Virus record (IMG/VR): IMGVR_UViG_3300008470_000248
Span: 1-21,207 of that record
Source: a virus
Strand: one strand, 5' to 3'
DNA: 21,207 nt
Shown here one piece after another: positions 2,023 through 21,207 of this stretch. Numbering within the stretch: position 1 is the first letter of the stretch; every line of letters starts with the position of its first letter. The position numbers were made by a program, and so were the translations under genes. The notes beneath the pieces were generated by a model that saw nothing but the letters and a program-made list of their open reading frames with translations, made no database searches and was not told the DNA's origin.

Positions 2023-3946
2023 TATTGCCAAACCTGAACTGAGCACACCCTTCCCCGACGTACCGCGGATATGGACCTGCCCTATTACCGGCATCCAAGT
2101 CCCGAAGTTGGTCCATGAGAATCTCCAGTGGCGCGGGCGTTTGCTGCGCGATGCGGAGGACGATCCCGGATTCCAGAATGATCTCTGGGCTGCTTGCAGG
2201 GATTCCATTCTCTTCTGGGTAAATGGTTTTGCCTTCACCTTCAAGCTGCGTGAATTCGACGAGCAGGGAAAAGCCATCCAGATAACGGAGGGTGTTCACG
2301 CACCATTTGTTACTTGGGAGATCCAGCATAGACATATATTAGAGATAGAAAGTGCGATTGATAAAGGCTATGATCTCCTTACTGACAAGTCGCGTGAAAT
2401 GGGGGCATCATGGGACCACATCCTGGTTTTTGAGCATCAATTTTTGTTCAAACCTGACCGTATGTTTCTGGAATTGTCAAGGACAGAAGAGTACGTTGAT
2501 AGGGCTGACAATCCTAAGTCGCTGTTTTGGAAACATCGGTACATCAGGAAGTGGCTCCCGGACTGGCTCTTGCCTCCTATTACAGACATCACAATGCACT
2601 TTTCCAATTTGGCGAATGGATCTAAAATTGACGGAGAATCCGCCAATGCGAATGCCGCCTCTGGCGACCGTCGTACAGCGGCTCTGTTGGATGAGTTTGC
2701 CAAGGTGGAGCAGGGTACTAAGATCCGTTGGGCTACGTCGGATGTTACCTCATGCCGCCTAATCAACTCTACCCCGGCCGGGCCTGGTACCGAGTATAGC
2801 AAGTGGAAGAAATCAGGTCAGATCAAAGTCTTCACGATGCCCTGGTGGGAGCATCCGGAAAAGGGTGTCAATCGGTATGTCGTGCAAGATGAGGAAACAA
2901 AGGCGTGGCAGATCCGTTCCCCATTTTATGATCTTCAAGCGGAGCGTAGATCGCCCCAAGAGATGGCGCAGGAGTTAGATCGTGATGACATCGCATCCGG
3001 ATCGACGTTCTTCGATGCGTATCCTATCGAGCAGCATAAGGCGCTGTTTGTCGCACCACCGACGTTTACACGCGGGTTCAAATTCAAGCGCGACGTGTCT
3101 CAAGACGCTATGCCGAGCATTATCATGCGTCGTCAGATGGCGCGGGTGGAGGTCGCCAAGACAGGCGCGTGGAAATTCTGGCTTGCTAAAAATCCAAGGG
3201 AACATCCCGATCAAACGAAAAACTACGTCTTTGGGATTGACATCTCTAAGGGTCAGGGAGCGTCTAATTCAGTTGTCTCGGTATTATGCGCTGAGACGCG
3301 CGAAAAGGTTGCGGAGTTCGCAGACGCCAACACCCCGCCCTACGAACTGGCGCTTACTGTTGCTGCTGCTTCTATTTGGTTTGGTGGCGCTCGTGCTGGC
3401 GGTCATCCTCTGATTATCTGGGAGCAACAGGGACCAGGTTGGGATTTCGGTCGGGTGTTGGTCAAGACTCTACAGTATCCGAACTACTACGTTGACAAGG
3501 CCACTGGCACGGTACGTGAGAGAACCGGCAAGAAGTACGGGTGGCATTCGAGTCGGGAGAAGAAAGAGCAGATGCTTGGTGCTTTGAATCGCGCCTACGC
3601 GCACGGTGGAATTGTCAACCACTGCGAGCGGGCACTTGATGAGGCTCTTACCTACGTCTACTACGACAGCGGGGGCATTGGTCCGGCTGATTATGTGAAG
3701 GAATCAGAGTCAGCCAGGATGACGCATGGCGACCGTGTTATAGGCGACGGACTCGCGCTCCTCGGGATAGACGGGGAATTCAAAACCAAGCAAAACGCTC
3801 CTACACCACCCTTTAGATCCATCGGATACCGGAGGAGAATGGCTCTAGCACGCAATAAGAAGGGTCCACCGAAATGGGGTGCGACTATTGATTTTTCTAG
3901 TGGCACGCCAGAGTTTGTTGCACGGAAACCCCTAAGTCGGGTATAA
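2012..3946 (+). CDS. terL: Terminase large subunit (packaging ATPase and nuclease)
   Basis: 644 residues from ATG 2012; GGGGAAG (1996-2002) precedes it. The upstream in-frame extension to 1883 lies inside the endonuclease gene and was rejected. ATPase: Walker A-type KSREMGAS at 126-133, Walker B with catalytic glutamate in ALLDEFA (D227, E228), coupling motif INSTPAG at 251-257. Nuclease: D410 in GIDISKG, a second acidic residue E471 in IIWEQQGPG, and the terminal acidic cluster HGDRVIGDGLA (D574, D579), as expected for an RNase H-fold terminase nuclease. The protein powers DNA translocation into the prohead through the portal and cuts the concatemer. It is full length with all catalytic residues present. 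The gene ends eight bases before the portal start. Confidence 0.95.
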   Translation: MQLDIAKPELSTPFPDVPRIWTCPITGIQVPKLVHENLQWRGRLLRDAEDDPGFQNDLWAACRDSILFWVNGFAFTFKLREFDEQGKAIQITEGVHAPFVTWEIQHRHILEIESAIDKGYDLLTDKSREMGASWDHILVFEHQFLFKPDRMFLELSRTEEYVDRADNPKSLFWKHRYIRKWLPDWLLPPITDITMHFSNLANGSKIDGESANANAASGDRRTAALLDEFAKVEQGTKIRWATSDVTSCRLINSTPAGPGTEYSKWKKSGQIKVFTMPWWEHPEKGVNRYVVQDEETKAWQIRSPFYDLQAERRSPQEMAQELDRDDIASGSTFFDAYPIEQHKALFVAPPTFTRGFKFKRDVSQDAMPSIIMRRQMARVEVAKTGAWKFWLAKNPREHPDQTKNYVFGIDISKGQGASNSVVSVLCAETREKVAEFADANTPPYELALTVAAASIWFGGARAGGHPLIIWEQQGPGWDFGRVLVKTLQYPNYYVDKATGTVRERTGKKYGWHSSREKKEQMLGALNRAYAHGGIVNHCERALDEALTYVYYDSGGIGPADYVKESESARMTHGDRVIGDGLALLGIDGEFKTKQNAPTPPFRSIGYRRRMALARNKKGPPKWGATIDFSSGTPEFVARKPLSRV

Positions 3947-3947
3947 T
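3918..3947 (+). promoter_or_regulatory. Candidate sigma70-type promoter at the terminase-portal junction
   Basis: A perfect TATAAT (3942-3947) overlaps the terminase stop codon, with TTGCAC (3918-3923, four of six consensus bases) 18 bases upstream. Transcription would start about at the portal ATG (3954), giving a leaderless message. This would fit the absence of any Shine-Dalgarno sequence before the portal start. It could be chance. Confidence 0.35.
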
Positions 3948-3953
3948 AACAAT

Positions 3954-5816
3954 ATGGCAGCGAAGGAAGTCACCGTCCGTAAAATGTACCGCGCTGTGAA
4001 ACTCGGTGAGGATCGTCTGCGTAATTTCCGAGCCGCACGCCTGTTGTTTCTACGGCAATACGCTGGACAATACTACGACCAGGAACGTGCGCGATTGGGC
4101 GATGAGCCGCTCAACATGATTTTCAGCGCGATCTCCACGCTCGTTCCTAACCTCGTGACAAACTTCCCCAAGACGCTCGTGACTTCCAAGTTTCTCGTGT
4201 ACCGCGGATACGCCGAACTCCTTGGATTGGGTCTGGACTACCTGGCGAAAGAAATGAATCTACGGGCGGAATTGCGCCGGTGGATCGTGGACTCGTTATT
4301 TGCTATTGGCATTATGAAAACCGGAATTGCCACGAGCAATAATCTTGTCAGTTTTTCCGATGACCTCCGCATCGACCCAGGCCAACCATACGCAACCGTG
4401 GTGGATTTCGACGACTTTATTCTCGATCCAGCATGTCGTCGTATTGAAGAGGCGAGTTTCGTCGGGCATCGCGTGCGAGTGCCCAGGCAAATGCTGCTTG
4501 ATTCAAAGTTCTACGACAGCGATTTGGTAGCGCAACTTCCGTCTTCCGGTAGCAGTGTCAACGACCGTCGAGGCGCTCAGTTACTTTCTCAGCGTGAAAC
4601 TTCGCCCGAGCAGGTTGCATCCCTTCAAGATTTGGTGGATGTACGCGAAGTCTGGGTCCCCGCGGCACAGGCCATTGCGACTCTTCCCGCTGGGCGGGCC
4701 GTATATGACAAGTATCTTCGGACTGAGGACTACGACGGTCCTGATGAGGGGCCGTACACCTATCTCGCTCTTACGCCGCCGCTCCCCAACAATCCTATGC
4801 CTATCGCCCCGGTGGGTATTTGGTACGACCTTCATGTTGCTGGCAACAAAATGGCCAAGAAGATCATGGATCAGGCCGAGCGGCAGAAGGATATTCTGGG
4901 ATACAAACCCGCCGCCGCGGATGATGCGCAAGGTATCATTGATGCCGGTGATGGCGAGTCAGTGGGCCTGATGGACCCCGATGGCGCGAAGATCTATTCC
5001 TTCGGCGGTCAACAGCAGTCGAACGAGGCGCATCTCCAGCAATTGGGTTACTGGTTTAACCTAGCGACTGGCAACACCGAGCAGTTGGGTGGGATAAAGT
5101 CTGATGCCAATACCGCTACTCAGGCCAACATCCTCGCTGGTAATCAGAATGTGCGTGTTGAGGATATGCGCGATCTCGTATACGTTGGCACTCAGAATGT
5201 GCAGCGCGGTGTGGCGTGGCATCTTCACACCGATCCATTGATTGCCCTTCCGCTCATCAAGCGCCGCCCGATTCCAGCACGTACTGTCATGGGTCCAATG
5301 GGTCCGATGGTTCTGCCGCCGCGCATGGAAGAGGAACAGGTTATCCTCACGCCGGATACTCGTGCGGGTGAGTTCTTGGATTTCCATTTTGAAATTGAGC
5401 AGAAGTCCATGTCTCGTATGGACCCTGCCCAGCGACTTCAAAAGGCGTTGCTATTTGCAGGGAAGGTATTGCCAGCCGCGGCTCAAGCTGCGATGGTCTG
5501 TCAGCAAATGGGAACGCCATTCTCGTTCCAGAAGTTCCTCATCCGAATGGCCAAAGAAATGGACATCGACTGGATGGACGAGGTATTCTACGACCCTGAA
5601 TTCCAGGCGAAGGTGGCGGGAATGGTAGCGCAATCGCCGCAGCCCGATAACGCGAAACCTCAACAGGCTGGTGGCGGTATGGGCGCGATCATGCAGAACG
5701 GCCAGCCGGGTAACGTCAGCATGACGGATCAGGATACCAACATGGGTCCTCAAGGCGCATCAACTGAAACTCGTTCCGGGGCGCAGCCCGCGGAAGCATT
5801 TGCGGGAGCATTCTGA
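3954..5816 (+). CDS. Portal protein (head-tail connector ring)
   Basis: 620 residues, normal for a podovirus-type portal. The N-terminal 120 residues are helical with aromatic motifs (RLLFLRQYAGQYYDQ), followed by the region VVDFDDFILDPACRR (residues ~145-160), a pattern I associate with phage portals in which a conserved acidic/aromatic stretch precedes the wing. Residues ~373-425 (GNTEQLGG through HLHTDP) form a long helix as expected for the portal stem and crown. The last ~60 residues are Gly/Gln/Asn-rich and probably disordered. The dodecameric portal is the channel for DNA entry and exit and docks the terminase. The start has no Shine-Dalgarno sequence. The stop overlaps the next gene as TGATG. 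Confidence 0.88.
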   Translation: MAAKEVTVRKMYRAVKLGEDRLRNFRAARLLFLRQYAGQYYDQERARLGDEPLNMIFSAISTLVPNLVTNFPKTLVTSKFLVYRGYAELLGLGLDYLAKEMNLRAELRRWIVDSLFAIGIMKTGIATSNNLVSFSDDLRIDPGQPYATVVDFDDFILDPACRRIEEASFVGHRVRVPRQMLLDSKFYDSDLVAQLPSSGSSVNDRRGAQLLSQRETSPEQVASLQDLVDVREVWVPAAQAIATLPAGRAVYDKYLRTEDYDGPDEGPYTYLALTPPLPNNPMPIAPVGIWYDLHVAGNKMAKKIMDQAERQKDILGYKPAAADDAQGIIDAGDGESVGLMDPDGAKIYSFGGQQQSNEAHLQQLGYWFNLATGNTEQLGGIKSDANTATQANILAGNQNVRVEDMRDLVYVGTQNVQRGVAWHLHTDPLIALPLIKRRPIPARTVMGPMGPMVLPPRMEEEQVILTPDTRAGEFLDFHFEIEQKSMSRMDPAQRLQKALLFAGKVLPAAAQAAMVCQQMGTPFSFQKFLIRMAKEMDIDWMDEVFYDPEFQAKVAGMVAQSPQPDNAKPQQAGGGMGAIMQNGQPGNVSMTDQDTNMGPQGASTETRSGAQPAEAFAGAF

Positions 5817-6025
5817 TGTCAAAAGGTGCTAGTCCAGCCGTAACAGATGACAAGAAGTGGGAAGCTGAATCCGATGCTCGGTCACTTACCGAATCTGAGC
5901 AGATTCGCGCCGATAAACCGCGACACGCACGAGCCATTGTCGAACTTAGAAAACAAGCTGAGGTGGCTGATAAAGAGGCCAAGATAAAGAGGGGTCTCGC
6001 TGCTGCGTTCCCGAAGGATAAATAA
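5816..6025 (+). CDS. Small charged helical protein of unknown function
   Basis: 69 residues, translationally coupled to the portal by a TGATG overlap, with GGGAG (5804-5808) ahead of the start. It is rich in Lys, Glu, Asp and Ala and is probably one long helix or coiled coil (residues ~18-60). It contains the pattern KWEAESDARSLTESEQIRAD, which resembles small proteins of unknown function that often follow portal genes in environmental phages. No catalytic or binding motif is visible. A minor virion or assembly role is possible. Confidence 0.65.
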   Translation: MSKGASPAVTDDKKWEAESDARSLTESEQIRADKPRHARAIVELRKQAEVADKEAKIKRGLAAAFPKDK

Positions 6026-6026
6026 A

Positions 6027-6473
6027 ATGCCCGAAGCAAATGCAGGTATAGGCGCGTCCGGTGTCCCACGTGGCGGGCAGTTAGAGACAGATCTACTGGC
6101 CTTGAGTGATCCTGCGAAAAAAATTGCCAATACCCGGAAAGCTGCCGTTGAGGCCAACGCTGCGAAGAACCTCAAGATGCTGGGGGAGGGTCAGGCGATG
6201 CGCGCTAAATCGCTCAACGATCAGGCCGCGGATTTCGTGATGAACATGCTCAAGCCCAATGCTGAGCGAGATCCGGATGGCTACATGCGTGACCTTGAAC
6301 TTCGTATCGCCGATATGGAGACCAAGGCGAAAGCAGTGAAAGCGTCTAAGAGTGGAAATGTCGAGGCCGAGCAGACGTATCAGCAGGTCGCGGAGGTTCT
6401 GCGCAAACGTCTCCAAGCGATGCAGAACGACCAGATGCAGGCCACATCTCAGCCCGCTGGAGGGACTCAATAA
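6027..6473 (+). CDS. Hypothetical helical protein
   Basis: 148 residues; ATG 6027 follows the previous stop by one base, with AAGGA (6014-6018) upstream. After a Gly-rich N-terminus (residues 1-20) it is almost entirely helical, and residues ~85-130 have coiled-coil-like composition (RIADMETKAKAVKAS onward). The C-terminus is Gln/Asn/Met-rich. It may be an assembly or internal protein given its place between portal and scaffold, but nothing specific identifies it. Confidence 0.62.
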   Translation: MPEANAGIGASGVPRGGQLETDLLALSDPAKKIANTRKAAVEANAAKNLKMLGEGQAMRAKSLNDQAADFVMNMLKPNAERDPDGYMRDLELRIADMETKAKAVKASKSGNVEAEQTYQQVAEVLRKRLQAMQNDQMQATSQPAGGTQ

Positions 6474-6761
6474 ATGACCTTCGTATGGAAAAGAAATGGT
6501 CGAGTGGTTCGTGGTCCAGAGGACATACCCTCTCGTGGTAATGGTGTGGGAGTGGCGGTTCGTGGCAACTACAAGACGCCAATCGAACTTCTGTCGATGG
6601 GCTTCATAGCTCATCCGGAAGATGTGGCCGAGCATCGTAAGCGTTTTCCCGCCGTAGATCTTCGGATGCACGAAGGATCGGCTATTCCCGTAGTGGTGAG
6701 TCTGAGCCAGAAGCGCGCTTATCTCAAGGCTTCGGGTTGGGCCGATACGAAAAGCTATTGA
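6474..6761 (+). CDS. Hypothetical small protein
   Basis: 95 residues; ATG 6474 abuts the previous stop, and GGAGG (6461-6465) is the ribosome site. The protein is basic, with a short VWKRNGRVV N-terminus and a C-terminal helix SLSQKRAYLKASGW. The last part resembles an Arg/Lys-Tyr-Leu helix seen in small phage proteins between portal and capsid genes, but I cannot name a family. The stop codon lies inside the TTGACA of the candidate promoter that follows. Confidence 0.6.
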   Translation: MTFVWKRNGRVVRGPEDIPSRGNGVGVAVRGNYKTPIELLSMGFIAHPEDVAEHRKRFPAVDLRMHEGSAIPVVVSLSQKRAYLKASGWADTKSY

Positions 6762-6786
6762 CAGATCGGAGTAGATCTGCTAGAGT
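6758..6786 (+). promoter_or_regulatory. Candidate sigma70 promoter ahead of the scaffold-capsid genes
   Basis: A perfect TTGACA (6758-6763) is followed after 17 bases by TAGAGT (6781-6786, four of six matches to TATAAT). A nearby TAGAAT (6786-6791) is a better box but at 22-base spacing. Transcription would begin near 6793, leaving a leader of about 48 bases before the scaffold-like start. Placement before the most highly expressed genes of a virion makes it plausible. Confidence 0.5.
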
Positions 6787-6807
6787 AGAATAGTGAAGTC
6801 TTTTACC

Positions 6808-12161: not shown

Positions 12162-12176
12162 ACGAGAGAGAGAGTT

Positions 12177-14555
12177 ATGGGCCAGAAGAAACCTATCGAT
12201 CTCAGCTTTCCTGCTAAGGGTTTTGATGAGGGCTGGGCCTATAAGGCTCAACCGGAAGGCACGTCTCCGGACTGTCTCAATGTACGACCGTATGATGTGA
12301 TCGGGCAGCGTCTCCGCGGTGGTCAACGGTCGGGTTTGTCGAAGTATTGCACTTCTACAGTTAACGGGACTAACCCGATTCAACGTCTTGGGGTTATAAT
12401 AGCTGCTATAGTTGGCGGGGATGACAACACACAAGACACATTTACGCAGGATAATGGGGTACTAAGTGACACGAATTGGTATCTTGCTACTGCTTCGTAT
12501 CCTAACCTTGTAGCCAGCGGGATTCAACCTATTGTTTCCAGCAACAAGATTGTTCTTGATAACACTACATATCCAGGGGCCGGATCGTGTGCAGCCATAC
12601 ATAAATCAGCAGCTACGGTAAGTAAAAGTTCTGTATCGGCTACTGCTATTCTCGTTAGCGACTCTGCCTCGGGTGCCTCCCTAGAATTCAGGTTAATTGT
12701 GCGTTCACCTAGTCCATCCTTCCCCTTTAGTTACACCAATTTTGTACGGGTTGGTGTAACCGTTTACTCCGACGGAAGTGGTTTTGGAATTCAACCGTAT
12801 GTCGGGGGATCATCATTTGGTGATGGTAGCGGACCCTATGGTTCTACTGCCATGAATACCGGCGTTTCCGGAGACTGGAAAGATACTGATGTTTGGGCTT
12901 CGGGTGTCGAGGTAAAGGCGGTGATGGATGGTATAGTCATCAAACTATACCTCGATGATGTACTGATGGGAACCCAGAATTTTGCTTCTTATCCCGTCTC
13001 TAATACGTTCGCGGGTTTTGTAATCAACAAATCGGATCACGCGAGCAATTCGGTAACTATGGATCTGTTTACTGTGACAAATTCCTTGCCAATCTCCGGT
13101 CGGGAACCTACCATAGTAGCTGTGTCAGACGGAAGCGTATACCACGGTGATGCAACTGATTTTGATTTAGCAACTGATGGTGGGGACATTCTCGACACGG
13201 CCGTTGAGCGTGTTCGCATGACAAACCTATTTGGCAAGGTATACCTAGTTGACGGAACTAGCTATTATGTGTTTGATAATGCCACCACAACGGTAAGTGT
13301 TTGGACTCCCTCAAATGGGGATGTACTACCAATCAGTGGAGCAAATACAGCTAGAATCATTACAACATATCGGGGACGCATCGTTCTTGCGGGTGTAGTC
13401 GGAGATGCCCAGAACTGGTTTATGTCCGCGGCTGGCGACCCTCTTGACTGGGACTACGGAGCTACTCAATCTGCTATCATGGCTGTTGCCGGAAATGAGT
13501 CAGTAGCCGGTAAATGTCCTGACATAATCACCTGTCTTGCCTCTGCGAGCGATGATCTTATGATTATCGGAGGAGATCACACTCTCTGGATGATGCGCGG
13601 TGATCCGGCTAGTGGGGGCCGTATTGATAACATCAGTAACAGTACCGGAATTATTGGGCCAGATGCGTTTGCCTATGATTCTACTGGTACACTCTACTTC
13701 TTTGGTAGTGGAGTCGTATGGCGAATGACCCCTGACGGGCAACTTACCCCACTCAGTCGGAACCGAATGGATCGTACCTTCGGGGCCATAGATGCTACCT
13801 CAAATACTGTTAAGTTAGCTTGGGACACAATACGGCAGGGGCTACATATATTCGTTACGCCTACCGTGGAGGGCACTACACAGCACTACTGGTGGGATGC
13901 TAGAACAAACAGTTTTTGGATTGACGAATATCCGGCTTTCATGAATCCGACCTCGGTGGCGATTTTCGATGCCGATAACCCGTCTGATCGAGCGATTCTG
14001 CTAGGAGGGTGGGACGGATACATTCGACAAGAAGATCCATCCGCGAATGATGACGACGGAACAACGATCAACAGCCGGGTTAAGTTTGGGCCGATGACTC
14101 CAGGTAGTGTCCACCAGAACGCTAGAATCAGTCGAATTATTACAGTATTGGGGTCCGACAGTAATCCAGTTGATTTGCACGTCTATGTGGCTCAATCCCC
14201 CGAGCAAGTAGTCGCCGCAACGACTCCTGTGTGGGCGAAGGAAATAACATCCATATCCCGATATTCTATCCCTCGAATCGGTGGCAACTCGGTCCTATTC
14301 GAGTTTGAGAATGACTCCTACTCCGCGGCCTGGGTGACGGGAACGGTTTATGTGGCGGGGGATCAAGTAGTAGTGAGCGGCGTGCCGTACGACTGTGATG
14401 TAGCGCATACGAGCACAGATAGCGGTGATAACGACCATCCTACACCGCCTGGCAATACAACTGACTGGACAGCAACGACGTTCCGTACCTGGGCACTGGA
14501 GAGTGTCAGCGCAGTCCTTGAGACTACCGGCCGAACTCGACACGGGAGAATCTAA
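12177..14555 (+). CDS. Tail nozzle / tail tubular-type beta-propeller-like protein with two inserted domains
   Basis: 792 residues from ATG 12177 (GAGAGAG ahead; the upstream GTG at 12141 overlaps the terminator). The core reads FDEGWAYKAQPEGTSPDCLNVRPYD (split over residues 16-40), RLRGGQRSG, later DPLDWDYGATQSA, LWMMRGDPASGGRIDN, YFFGSGVVWRMTPDG and HYWWDARTNSFW, repeated beta-blade-like strands similar to long tail proteins placed after connectors in podovirus-like phages, and comparable to T7 gp12-type nozzles. Residues ~85-305 look like a laminin G/concanavalin-type insert. Residues ~718-768 (WVTGTVYVAGDQVVVSG ... TTDWTA) resemble a CBM5/12-type module inserted before the last core strands. 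The gene overlaps the fibre start as TAATG. Confidence 0.62.
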   Translation: MGQKKPIDLSFPAKGFDEGWAYKAQPEGTSPDCLNVRPYDVIGQRLRGGQRSGLSKYCTSTVNGTNPIQRLGVIIAAIVGGDDNTQDTFTQDNGVLSDTNWYLATASYPNLVASGIQPIVSSNKIVLDNTTYPGAGSCAAIHKSAATVSKSSVSATAILVSDSASGASLEFRLIVRSPSPSFPFSYTNFVRVGVTVYSDGSGFGIQPYVGGSSFGDGSGPYGSTAMNTGVSGDWKDTDVWASGVEVKAVMDGIVIKLYLDDVLMGTQNFASYPVSNTFAGFVINKSDHASNSVTMDLFTVTNSLPISGREPTIVAVSDGSVYHGDATDFDLATDGGDILDTAVERVRMTNLFGKVYLVDGTSYYVFDNATTTVSVWTPSNGDVLPISGANTARIITTYRGRIVLAGVVGDAQNWFMSAAGDPLDWDYGATQSAIMAVAGNESVAGKCPDIITCLASASDDLMIIGGDHTLWMMRGDPASGGRIDNISNSTGIIGPDAFAYDSTGTLYFFGSGVVWRMTPDGQLTPLSRNRMDRTFGAIDATSNTVKLAWDTIRQGLHIFVTPTVEGTTQHYWWDARTNSFWIDEYPAFMNPTSVAIFDADNPSDRAILLGGWDGYIRQEDPSANDDDGTTINSRVKFGPMTPGSVHQNARISRIITVLGSDSNPVDLHVYVAQSPEQVVAATTPVWAKEITSISRYSIPRIGGNSVLFEFENDSYSAAWVTGTVYVAGDQVVVSGVPYDCDVAHTSTDSGDNDHPTPPGNTTDWTATTFRTWALESVSAVLETTGRTRHGRI

Positions 14556-16356
14556 TGCCCCTTATAGGACAATCTCGACCTGATAGATTCCCAGGAGAGG
14601 ATACTCGCATACGCCGTGCTTTAGGAAGGCCCGTGAATGTTCCGTACTTGGATGCCGTATACGATGTTGATCTCGGTGCGCATTCTATAACGGCTGGTAC
14701 GGGCCTGATCGTGGGAGTGGATGCCGCTACCAACACCGCTGGGACTATTAAACTTTGGGGTGCTGGGGCAAACGATTTCTACACGACTATCACAGCGGCG
14801 GAACAAACAACTAATGCGACTTATGTACTTCCAATAGCGATGCCGACAGCCAATGACCGTGCTCTCATATGCTCGACGGCGGGTGTATTCTCTTGGAACG
14901 ATCAGGCAGTTAAGACTACCAGCAGTCCGACATTCGCTGGGGCGGCTATCAGTACGATAACATTGGCCAGCGGTAGTATTACATCGTCCACTGGGGCGAT
15001 CAGCTTTGGTAACGAGAACCTGAGCACCACCGGGATCATAACTGCCGGAAGCATCACTGACGGAACAACTCTCCACGATGCTACGTCTGGCCTTCATGTC
15101 TACGGTACGGCTACGACAGACTACGCCGTTATTGATACCGGTGTGAACTTTGATTTTGTGACGATGCCGGACAATCCGACGTTGGCTCTTATCGAAACCG
15201 CAGGGAATGTTGACGAGGGCAAGCACTATTATCAGGTTTCGTTCACCACCGCGTTTGGCGAGACGGACGCGCAGAGCTATGGTTCGGCTCCATCTGTCAC
15301 GACGGACGCTACCCATAAGCAAGTCACCGTCACAATCCCAGTCAGCACTGACTACAGGGTACGGGAAGGAAGATATACCGGACGAAGGCGGGTGATGCGG
15401 CCTATAAGGATTACCTGCTTGTGACTGTTGCCAATAACGTCGATACTGAATACGTCGATAACATTTCCGACGCGACCTTGGAGGCCCCTGGAAGATCGTA
15501 TCTGTACACAAAGCCGAACCTCGCCAGCAAGATGCTCCTGAAAGATGGATCGTCGGTGATGACCCTCGATGCGAAAACTACGCAGATCGGCGTAGGTGCT
15601 GGGCTATCAGGGAAAGGTGTGACGATAGGATCGGAAGCCGGGCAGAACTTAGAATCCACAGGGGCAGGGAATGTTCTCGTTGGCCACCAAGCTGGACGCG
15701 GATTGACAAGCGGGACTAATAACGAATATATTGGACTTGAAGCTGGAATATACGCGACTGGGACTACTTCCTACAACGTGGGGATCGGCCAAGGAGCCCT
15801 TCAATCCGCTGGTGGAAGCAGCAATGTAGCGGTGGGTCACAACGCTGGGAGGTACTGCGCCGGGTATTACAATGTTCTGCTCGGTTATAAAGCCGGTTAC
15901 TCAGTCTCCGGCAGCGGGGCGATTCAGCGAAATACTTGCATTGGCGACCAGGCAGGCTACTTTCTGCGAACCCCCGCGAGCTACAATCAGTTGATCGGGA
16001 TGTACTCTGGCGACTCCATCACAGACGGCGACGGGAATGTCTTGCTGGGGTATAACACTGATGTTCTAGTAGCTGGCCAGGACTTCGGCACTGCGGTAGG
16101 ACACCTGGCGACCGTAGGTGCGTCGGGCATTGCGTTGGGCTACAACGTATCCGCCGCCGCCAATGAGTTCGCCATACCCACGACGATTACCGCCTGCACA
16201 TTCACCGGAGCAGTCGTGACGGCTGCTGGTTTTGCAGTCGGGGCATCGGTTGGTATCGACGCTACGGTGCCAGTTGCACCCGTAGACCCTGATACTGTCG
16301 CTGGTAGCATGACTTTTACCAAAGGAATTCTTACTGCGTACACGGCTCCGTCGTGA
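14555..16356 (+). pseudogene. Tail fibre protein with YadA-head-like repeats, interrupted by an apparent frameshift
   Basis: Two frames, 14555-15424 and 15421-16356, read as one protein of about 600 residues if the frame changes by one base near 15358-15364. The first part has a short conserved N-terminus (MPLIGQSRPDRFPGEDTRIR), likely particle-binding, a fibre region resembling T4-type distal proteins (ATYVLPIAMPTANDRALICS), and an FnIII-like strand set ending VTIPVSTDYRV. The second continues the same domain (TGRKIYRTKAGDAAYKDYLL from 15361) and then gives about ten glycine-centred repeats (NVAVGHNAG, NVLLGYKAG, NTCIGDQAG) as in trimeric autotransporter heads. GTG 15421 has no ribosome site. 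Whether the break is real, programmed or an assembly error is unresolved. Confidence 0.75.
15616..16170 (+). repeat. YadA-head-like beta-roll repeats in the tail fibre
   Basis: A run of roughly ten degenerate units of the form N-V-x-x-G-x-x-A-G separated by 10-25 residues: VTIGSEAG, NVLVGHQAG, EYIGLEAG, NVGIGQGA, NVAVGHNAG, NVLLGYKAG, NTCIGDQAG, NVLLGYN, TAVGHLA, IALGYN. This is the pattern of left-handed beta-rolls in trimeric adhesin heads, which suggests a trimeric fibre shaft or receptor-binding region. Confidence 0.75.
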
Positions 16357-20700: not shown

Positions 20701-21207
20701 AAGGACATAGCCGTAGCACGTGATCTACGTTTGACCAAGGCCGAGATCTCCGCGATCAACGCTGGCAAAATGACGCAGGGTATCTACAACAAGATTGTGC
20801 AAAACGGCGTGAAGATCACGCAGTTCATTACCGAAGACCCGCATCGGATGTCGAAGTGGCAACATATCCCGATGATTAACGGCCTGATAGCGTACAACAA
20901 TTATGCAATTGGAACCGCAAAAGCTGTTATGCGAATTGGGCGTGAAACCGCTATCGCTAAACTTGAATCTGCAGGATTCAACGTGGAAGACATTCCAATG
21001 GCATCTTCCAGTGAGCACTACTCTCGGATAGAAATAATGCGATTAGCAGAAGTCAAAGTGCCAAATGAAGAAAACCTATTCTGCAAATATCAATTAATGG
21101 TTGAAGATGCTGAATTAATTTCAACATATAAAACTGTAATTTTTGTTGGTGCTTATAAAACGAATTTAAAAAATGGTTTTGCTATGGAACGCGTATATCC
21201 TTCTAAA
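17755..21207 (+). CDS. Giant multidomain phage protein, probable internal virion / ejection protein (3'-partial)
   Basis: At least 1151 residues from ATG 17755 without a stop before the window end. Residues 1-110 are charged and helical. Residues ~115-360 are Gly/Ala/Met-rich and hydrophobic (GSFMAGMTEVGYKL, GNFFNMLLLGGGAKTKAG, AEEVTTQIGQNLVNKYVAG, GEAALQGGLMPLFAGGISAI), with segments able to interact with membranes. Residues ~363-540 are a Pro/Gly linker with an internal duplication. From ~541 on it is a mixed helical region including RALLSRAIRIVDSIIATAQT, which recalls the C-terminal domains of giant phage polyvalent or ejection proteins. No catalytic motif could be named. Base composition drops within the gene around 19430 and again sharply after ~21000. 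Confidence 0.6.
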   Translation, partial: MGWQDAPIVEETAPQWQSAPAMADQDGMVPEQARTKLTPDNWLQSAANDIQAKQEQRVRHNIDPMNADEQMKLQDRYRVAAGMEPIYKRALQRYQEMRQARTTDSDWQNYLNNIANTTGSFMAGMTEVGYKLSDLVGATKGQSAKFARQQARMTESLAPRGGVSGFGGRFTGNFFNMLLLGGGAKTKAGTPFGGRMLAQLPTAGAFGVSSAGSAITDIEQRRAKGEEVSGGQMFAAATLNAIIETGIEMFGLEMVSMAGRALGREVPSIVNALRKGSATGAGRALVKAIVSKQTIAGLAKASASGTAEEVTTQIGQNLVNKYVAGVQDQAIMEGVGEAALQGGLMPLFAGGISAIGRGTKAGPTAAPTLDTGLKPGDTGPAVEGTEHYPIPPLVKYEGGGPLATIPRKTPIIPRDSGKTYSQAGPGAPLIVPPTAGQVTPEQTLEMIREIGPQVPSPPPTPGAAFPIVPSGGPLVSQQQTPVIPVDRGKTYSQPGPDAPQTIVPMPSAGQITPEQTLEEVAIAGRQVDEAAPAQPQPSLADRIVSDETGAIPLSAMSGASMKAVAPIAHLVNDAMGEMAMAVADSPDGKAVVRSLDSVSTKAATLLGRIANVAADAYTALSRLDLKWLHTSDVNGYSNMQRLVEDTPSGRLTAPNSQIQGIVDAYNLMIDVTGQEAERLNVQVITPDGEVIYFKQASTGRYLRNMTPDAFVAITQGSGPLFDAIAAAVARDNNVDMAKAGLFLREWLGPESVRKVGQIERLRAIKFMPTTVKVNGKSVSIQETDPYLSIMNNARRQAKRIYFIGEFEQNIKGKPTRLELLRASFQKSGGKVADFDDMITVFEERPYKRVFRDPRALLSRAIRIVDSIIATAQTSLSAIPNLPQTLILVPKYVGVVNYLKALGHSLRHPRLTTAQLAGIGAMNRSVLDWTLRPGHGPEDFVKIFKGVVARVTGLEAISQFNNQVSGVGFSRLADSWLQNGIESKDIAVARDLRLTKAEISAINAGKMTQGIYNKIVQNGVKITQFITEDPHRMSKWQHIPMINGLIAYNNYAIGTAKAVMRIGRETAIAKLESAGFNVEDIPMASSSEHYSRIEIMRLAEVKVPNEENLFCKYQLMVEDAELISTYKTVIFVGAYKTNLKNGFAMERVYPSK
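18982..19308 (+). repeat. Internal duplication in the Pro/Gly linker of the giant protein
   Basis: Two copies of a ~36-residue unit: copy 1 at 18982-19089 and copy 2 at 19195-19308. Shared blocks are P-I/V-IP, GKTYSQ, GP-AP, AGQ-V/I-TPEQTLE. About 105 bases of Pro/Gly-rich sequence separate them. Such linker repeats usually arise by local duplication and give a flexible spacer. Confidence 0.72.

Follow-up and report, generated by a model that had tools for sequence, protein, structure and literature searches.

Here we report that the break in the tail-fibre gene of the window, by which we mean the entire 21,207-base virus record analysed, is very probably a frame-breaking indel peculiar to this record in an otherwise ordinary single-ORF gene. 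The gene would comprise ~600 codons, and the record would be short of one base at ~15361. An assembly or sequencing error is its probable source, a recent real indel in the sampled phage is a possible but less likely one, and all programmed readings taken together are improbable; neither recoding nor phase variation nor designed reinitiation is likely. Among the readings offered by the original prediction, the assembly indel and the truncating mutation are jointly supported, whereas the evidence speaks against recoding and phase variation, since none of 104 distinct relatives is broken and no signals for either were found.

Read literally, the ORF from ATG 14555 (14555-15424, plus strand, 289 aa), which is preceded by a Shine-Dalgarno-like GGGAG (dG -7.4), has the C-terminal end ...PVSTDYRV-REGRYTGRRRVMRPIRITCL; the gene then consists of 269 native codons and 20 foreign ones, with a stop at 15424 and 331 codons left out of frame. 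In the frame one base back the translation is TGRKIYRTKAGDAAYKDYLLVTV..., and this frame is open from 15352 to 16356, overlapping the first by 73 bases. The parts of the gene, all on the plus strand, are as follows.

14555-15361, plus strand: N-terminal part of the tail-fibre gene, with its 269 native codons, an ORF that fits the fibres of three relatives (L083, L084 and L085) in-frame up to the break.
15215-15480, plus strand: beta-sandwich domain of 86 profile positions, split after position 49, with profile matches in two frames.
15352-15424, plus strand: stretch open in both frames, where any shift would have to occur; no slippery heptamer and no homopolymer longer than 3 bases.
15361-16356, plus strand: C-terminal 331 codons, one base back in phase, identified by tblastn of 13 relatives and by alignment.
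15362-15424, plus strand: 20 out-of-frame codons and a TGA stop in the literal reading, with negative codon log-odds and no match in relatives.
15405-15424, plus strand: TAAGGA (15405-15410) and a GTGA stop/start overlap (15421-15424), a possible weak restart (dG -6.0).

Three lines place the break. Using a profile HMM of the domain built from 17 relatives, with the window left out, we found that profile positions 1-49 match 15215-15364 in the frame of ATG 14555 (44.0 bits), and that positions 49-86 match 15361-15480 one base back (51.0 bits). Used as tblastn queries, 13 fibre proteins that are intact on other contigs each gave two main matches, one in frame 2 and one in frame 1, and all 13 joined the two frames near 15361. 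Codon usage, modelled from the remaining genes, also switches coding phase near 15355; every other such switch in the window sits at a gene boundary, the fibre break being the sole exception, and no second frame break was found in the whole 21 kb. The two-frame structure of the fibre gene is not chance, and the break that had been predicted near 15361 is borne out by all three lines. The predicted join of DYRV to TGRKIY through a one-base change at 15361 was likewise confirmed by alignment to relatives, in which DYRV-TGRKIYRTKAG of the window, read across two frames, aligns without a gap to DYRVTSRKIYRTKAG of L083 and DYRVTGRKIYRTKAG of L085. Because the residues at 15361 join with none lost or gained, the break amounts to the net loss of one base.

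To place the break among relatives, viral contigs and genomes were searched, yielding 127 loci with the domain and 104 distinct domain sequences. Of these, 101 contain the complete domain within a single open frame, and the remaining three are partial matches that are likewise unbroken; at the fibre site, the break occurs in 0 of the 104. In L083, L084 and L085, the domains on both sides of the junction follow in the same order within a single ORF. Relatives carrying two separate genes at this point, which had been named as one of the observations that would overturn the prediction, were looked for and not found; the relatives examined have one gene. A second copy of the window phage gave no match, either with degenerate and exact DNA patterns in viral contigs or with megablast and blastn in phages. 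Unbroken copies of the domain are also present in several metagenome-assembled genomes of Patescibacteria, assigned to Falkowbacteria, Nomurabacteria, Saccharibacteria and Kaiserbacteria (loci L181, L183, L190, L195, L196, L198-L200, L202 and L203).

A programmed -1 ribosomal frameshift, or transcriptional slippage, would yield both a short and a long fibre, and the open, coding downstream frame and the overlap of the two frames count in favour of such a mechanism. No X XXY YYZ slippery heptamer in the zero frame is present in 15345-15424, however, which upholds the earlier claim that the shared stretch 15352-15424 has none, and the longest homopolymer in that stretch is 3 bases, with no A/T run. 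The RNA of 15355-15475 folds like its own shuffles (z -0.56), leaving no unusual downstream structure, and the break is absent from all relatives; we therefore regard this mechanism as highly improbable. Slipped-strand mispairing at a phase-variable site, toggling fibre length, is the least probable account of all: a short GGAAGGAAG stretch does adjoin the break, but it comprises only ~2 units, tandem-repeat and direct-repeat searches found no tract there, and no relative is broken at the site. For phase variation or frameshifting of fibres, titles and abstracts in the literature offered no obvious parallel. A genuine but unusual recoding or stop-restart site, using no known slippery motif and giving a short and a long fibre from one gene, is very doubtful. 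Overall, we infer that the frames are not joined by any programmed mechanism.

The remaining arrangement to be weighed is one of two genes, in which translation would stop at 15424 and restart by translational coupling at GTG 15421, producing separate proximal and distal fibre proteins. The GTG overlaps the stop as GTGA, and TAAGGA lies ten bases upstream, a modest Shine-Dalgarno match (dG -6.0 kcal/mol) within the range of real starts, so the earlier denial of a ribosome site at GTG 15421 went too far. Across the window, however, 19% of ATG and GTG codons have a ribosome site just as good. Moreover, the restart would fall within a domain found uninterrupted in all relatives, its codons encoding YK(D/E)Y within the domain of the closest one, and the product would start with only the final two of the domain's eight predicted strands. 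We read the restart signal as chance, and two genes as very unlikely, while counting the presence of this weak site as a point against a singleton indel.

The domain of L083, modelled by AlphaFold2 with 16 relatives (pLDDT 91.9), is a compact sandwich with 8 strands, and the break position is in the loop that leads into the sixth, after ~5/8 of the predicted strands. Beyond the break, the C-terminal part runs from the end of this beta-sandwich domain through G-N-G-AG repeats to a tip ending in TAPS, and matches to the virion and tail-spike families phrog_6002 and phrog_4636 lie within 15421-16353. Neither half of the fibre matched Pfam, and NCBIfam gave no family match. The distal fibre had been described as YadA-like; its best fold match is indeed the YadA-like head 3s6l, but with an E-value of 0.27, from a low-confidence model (pLDDT 60.9) and with no Pfam match, so that a YadA-like distal part is plausible but weakly supported. 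At its C-terminal end, the fibre shares 82-84% identity over its final 44 residues (...GSMTFTKGILTAYTAPS; 16222-16356) with the ends of the fibres (5001-5132) of two other phage contigs, L002 and L003, whose fibres are otherwise different, which suggests modular exchange of fibre tips.

Homologues are continuous across the break and the break is unique to the window record, as expected of a singleton indel, and this indel could be either an error in the record or a real mutation. A real recent deletion in the phage population would cut the fibre short, leaving 269 native and 20 foreign residues and losing the 331-residue distal part, and would make the sampled phage a host-range or loss-of-function variant. 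The receptor-binding parts of fibres mutate readily. Sequencing or assembly errors are commonest in homopolymers, and the break lies outside one, which counts against error and for a deletion. On the other hand, the truncation would leave half a beta-sandwich and remove 55% of the protein, a kind of fibre loss that is usually harmful to a phage, and the downstream part is without decay. We consider a real deletion possible, on the unlikely side. Since both halves are otherwise intact and the 331 downstream codons contain no further stop or shift, the lesion is recent or artificial. In a comparison of platforms, single-base errors affected ~3% of proteins in Illumina contigs at 10x coverage (PMC3277595); at this rate, one case among the ~20 genes of the window is not surprising. 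The division of the odds between error and mutation is our own estimate from these considerations.

Neighbouring genes match terminase (phrog_5989), portal (phrog_1216) and endonuclease VII, a set that fits a tailed phage. Some further features of the record were observed. The gene before the fibre (12174-14555) carries at residues 719-749 a carbohydrate-binding module, CBM_5_12 (PF02839), which scores 27.9 bits where the cut-off is 26.2. Two small adjacent ORFs, 686-934 and 941-1210, are alike in sequence, each with an HEF/MIHAI motif, and match phage families weakly, a metallo-protease family among them; they are perhaps a tandem duplication. At the end of the window (21050-21207), GC content is ~0.28 over the last 150 bases, compared with ~0.5 before, and the ORF from 17755 remains open, with no viral relative found for its last 83 residues; this stretch is possibly a chimeric contig end.

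The observation of a frame break is thus correct and well located, and the thing itself is ordinary. Its main value is as a caution in reading the record, which presents itself as a truncated fibre and an orphan distal ORF, so that gene callers would list two genes where relatives have one. A deletion, if real, would be a fibre-loss variant in the wild, and recoding, if true, would offer a new means of varying fibre length; on the evidence, neither is preferred to error.

L083, the fibre protein of IMGVR_UViG_3300033148_003642 (ORF 3909-6797, 962 aa), has, like the window fibre, an SFGNEN region, an HYYYVTY...DYRVTSRKIYRTKAG beta-sandwich and then G-N-G-AG repeats, and is 47-49% identical to it on either side of the break; unlike it, L083 has a single uninterrupted frame, and its C-terminal tip differs. 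L085, the fibre of IMGVR_UViG_3300001533_000636, is homologous to the window fibre on both sides of the break and, by its codons at the junction, is among the relatives nearest to the window, yet its frame is intact. The nearest solved fold to the L083 domain model lies in the capsid structure of phage SPO1 (9vel), where Gp6.1 has a beta-sandwich domain like the split one (sequence E 1.3e-6, fold E 6e-5); Gp6.1 is a capsid-associated protein, whereas the split domain here is part of a fibre. Finally, whereas the GeneTack set was drawn from complete genomes and the window is a metagenome contig, the singleton frameshift genes of that study resemble the present case in having one homologue-validated frame break at a site that is not conserved, and such unclustered genes, validated by BLASTp homologues, were expected to reflect sequencing errors and not genuine indels (PMC3711429).
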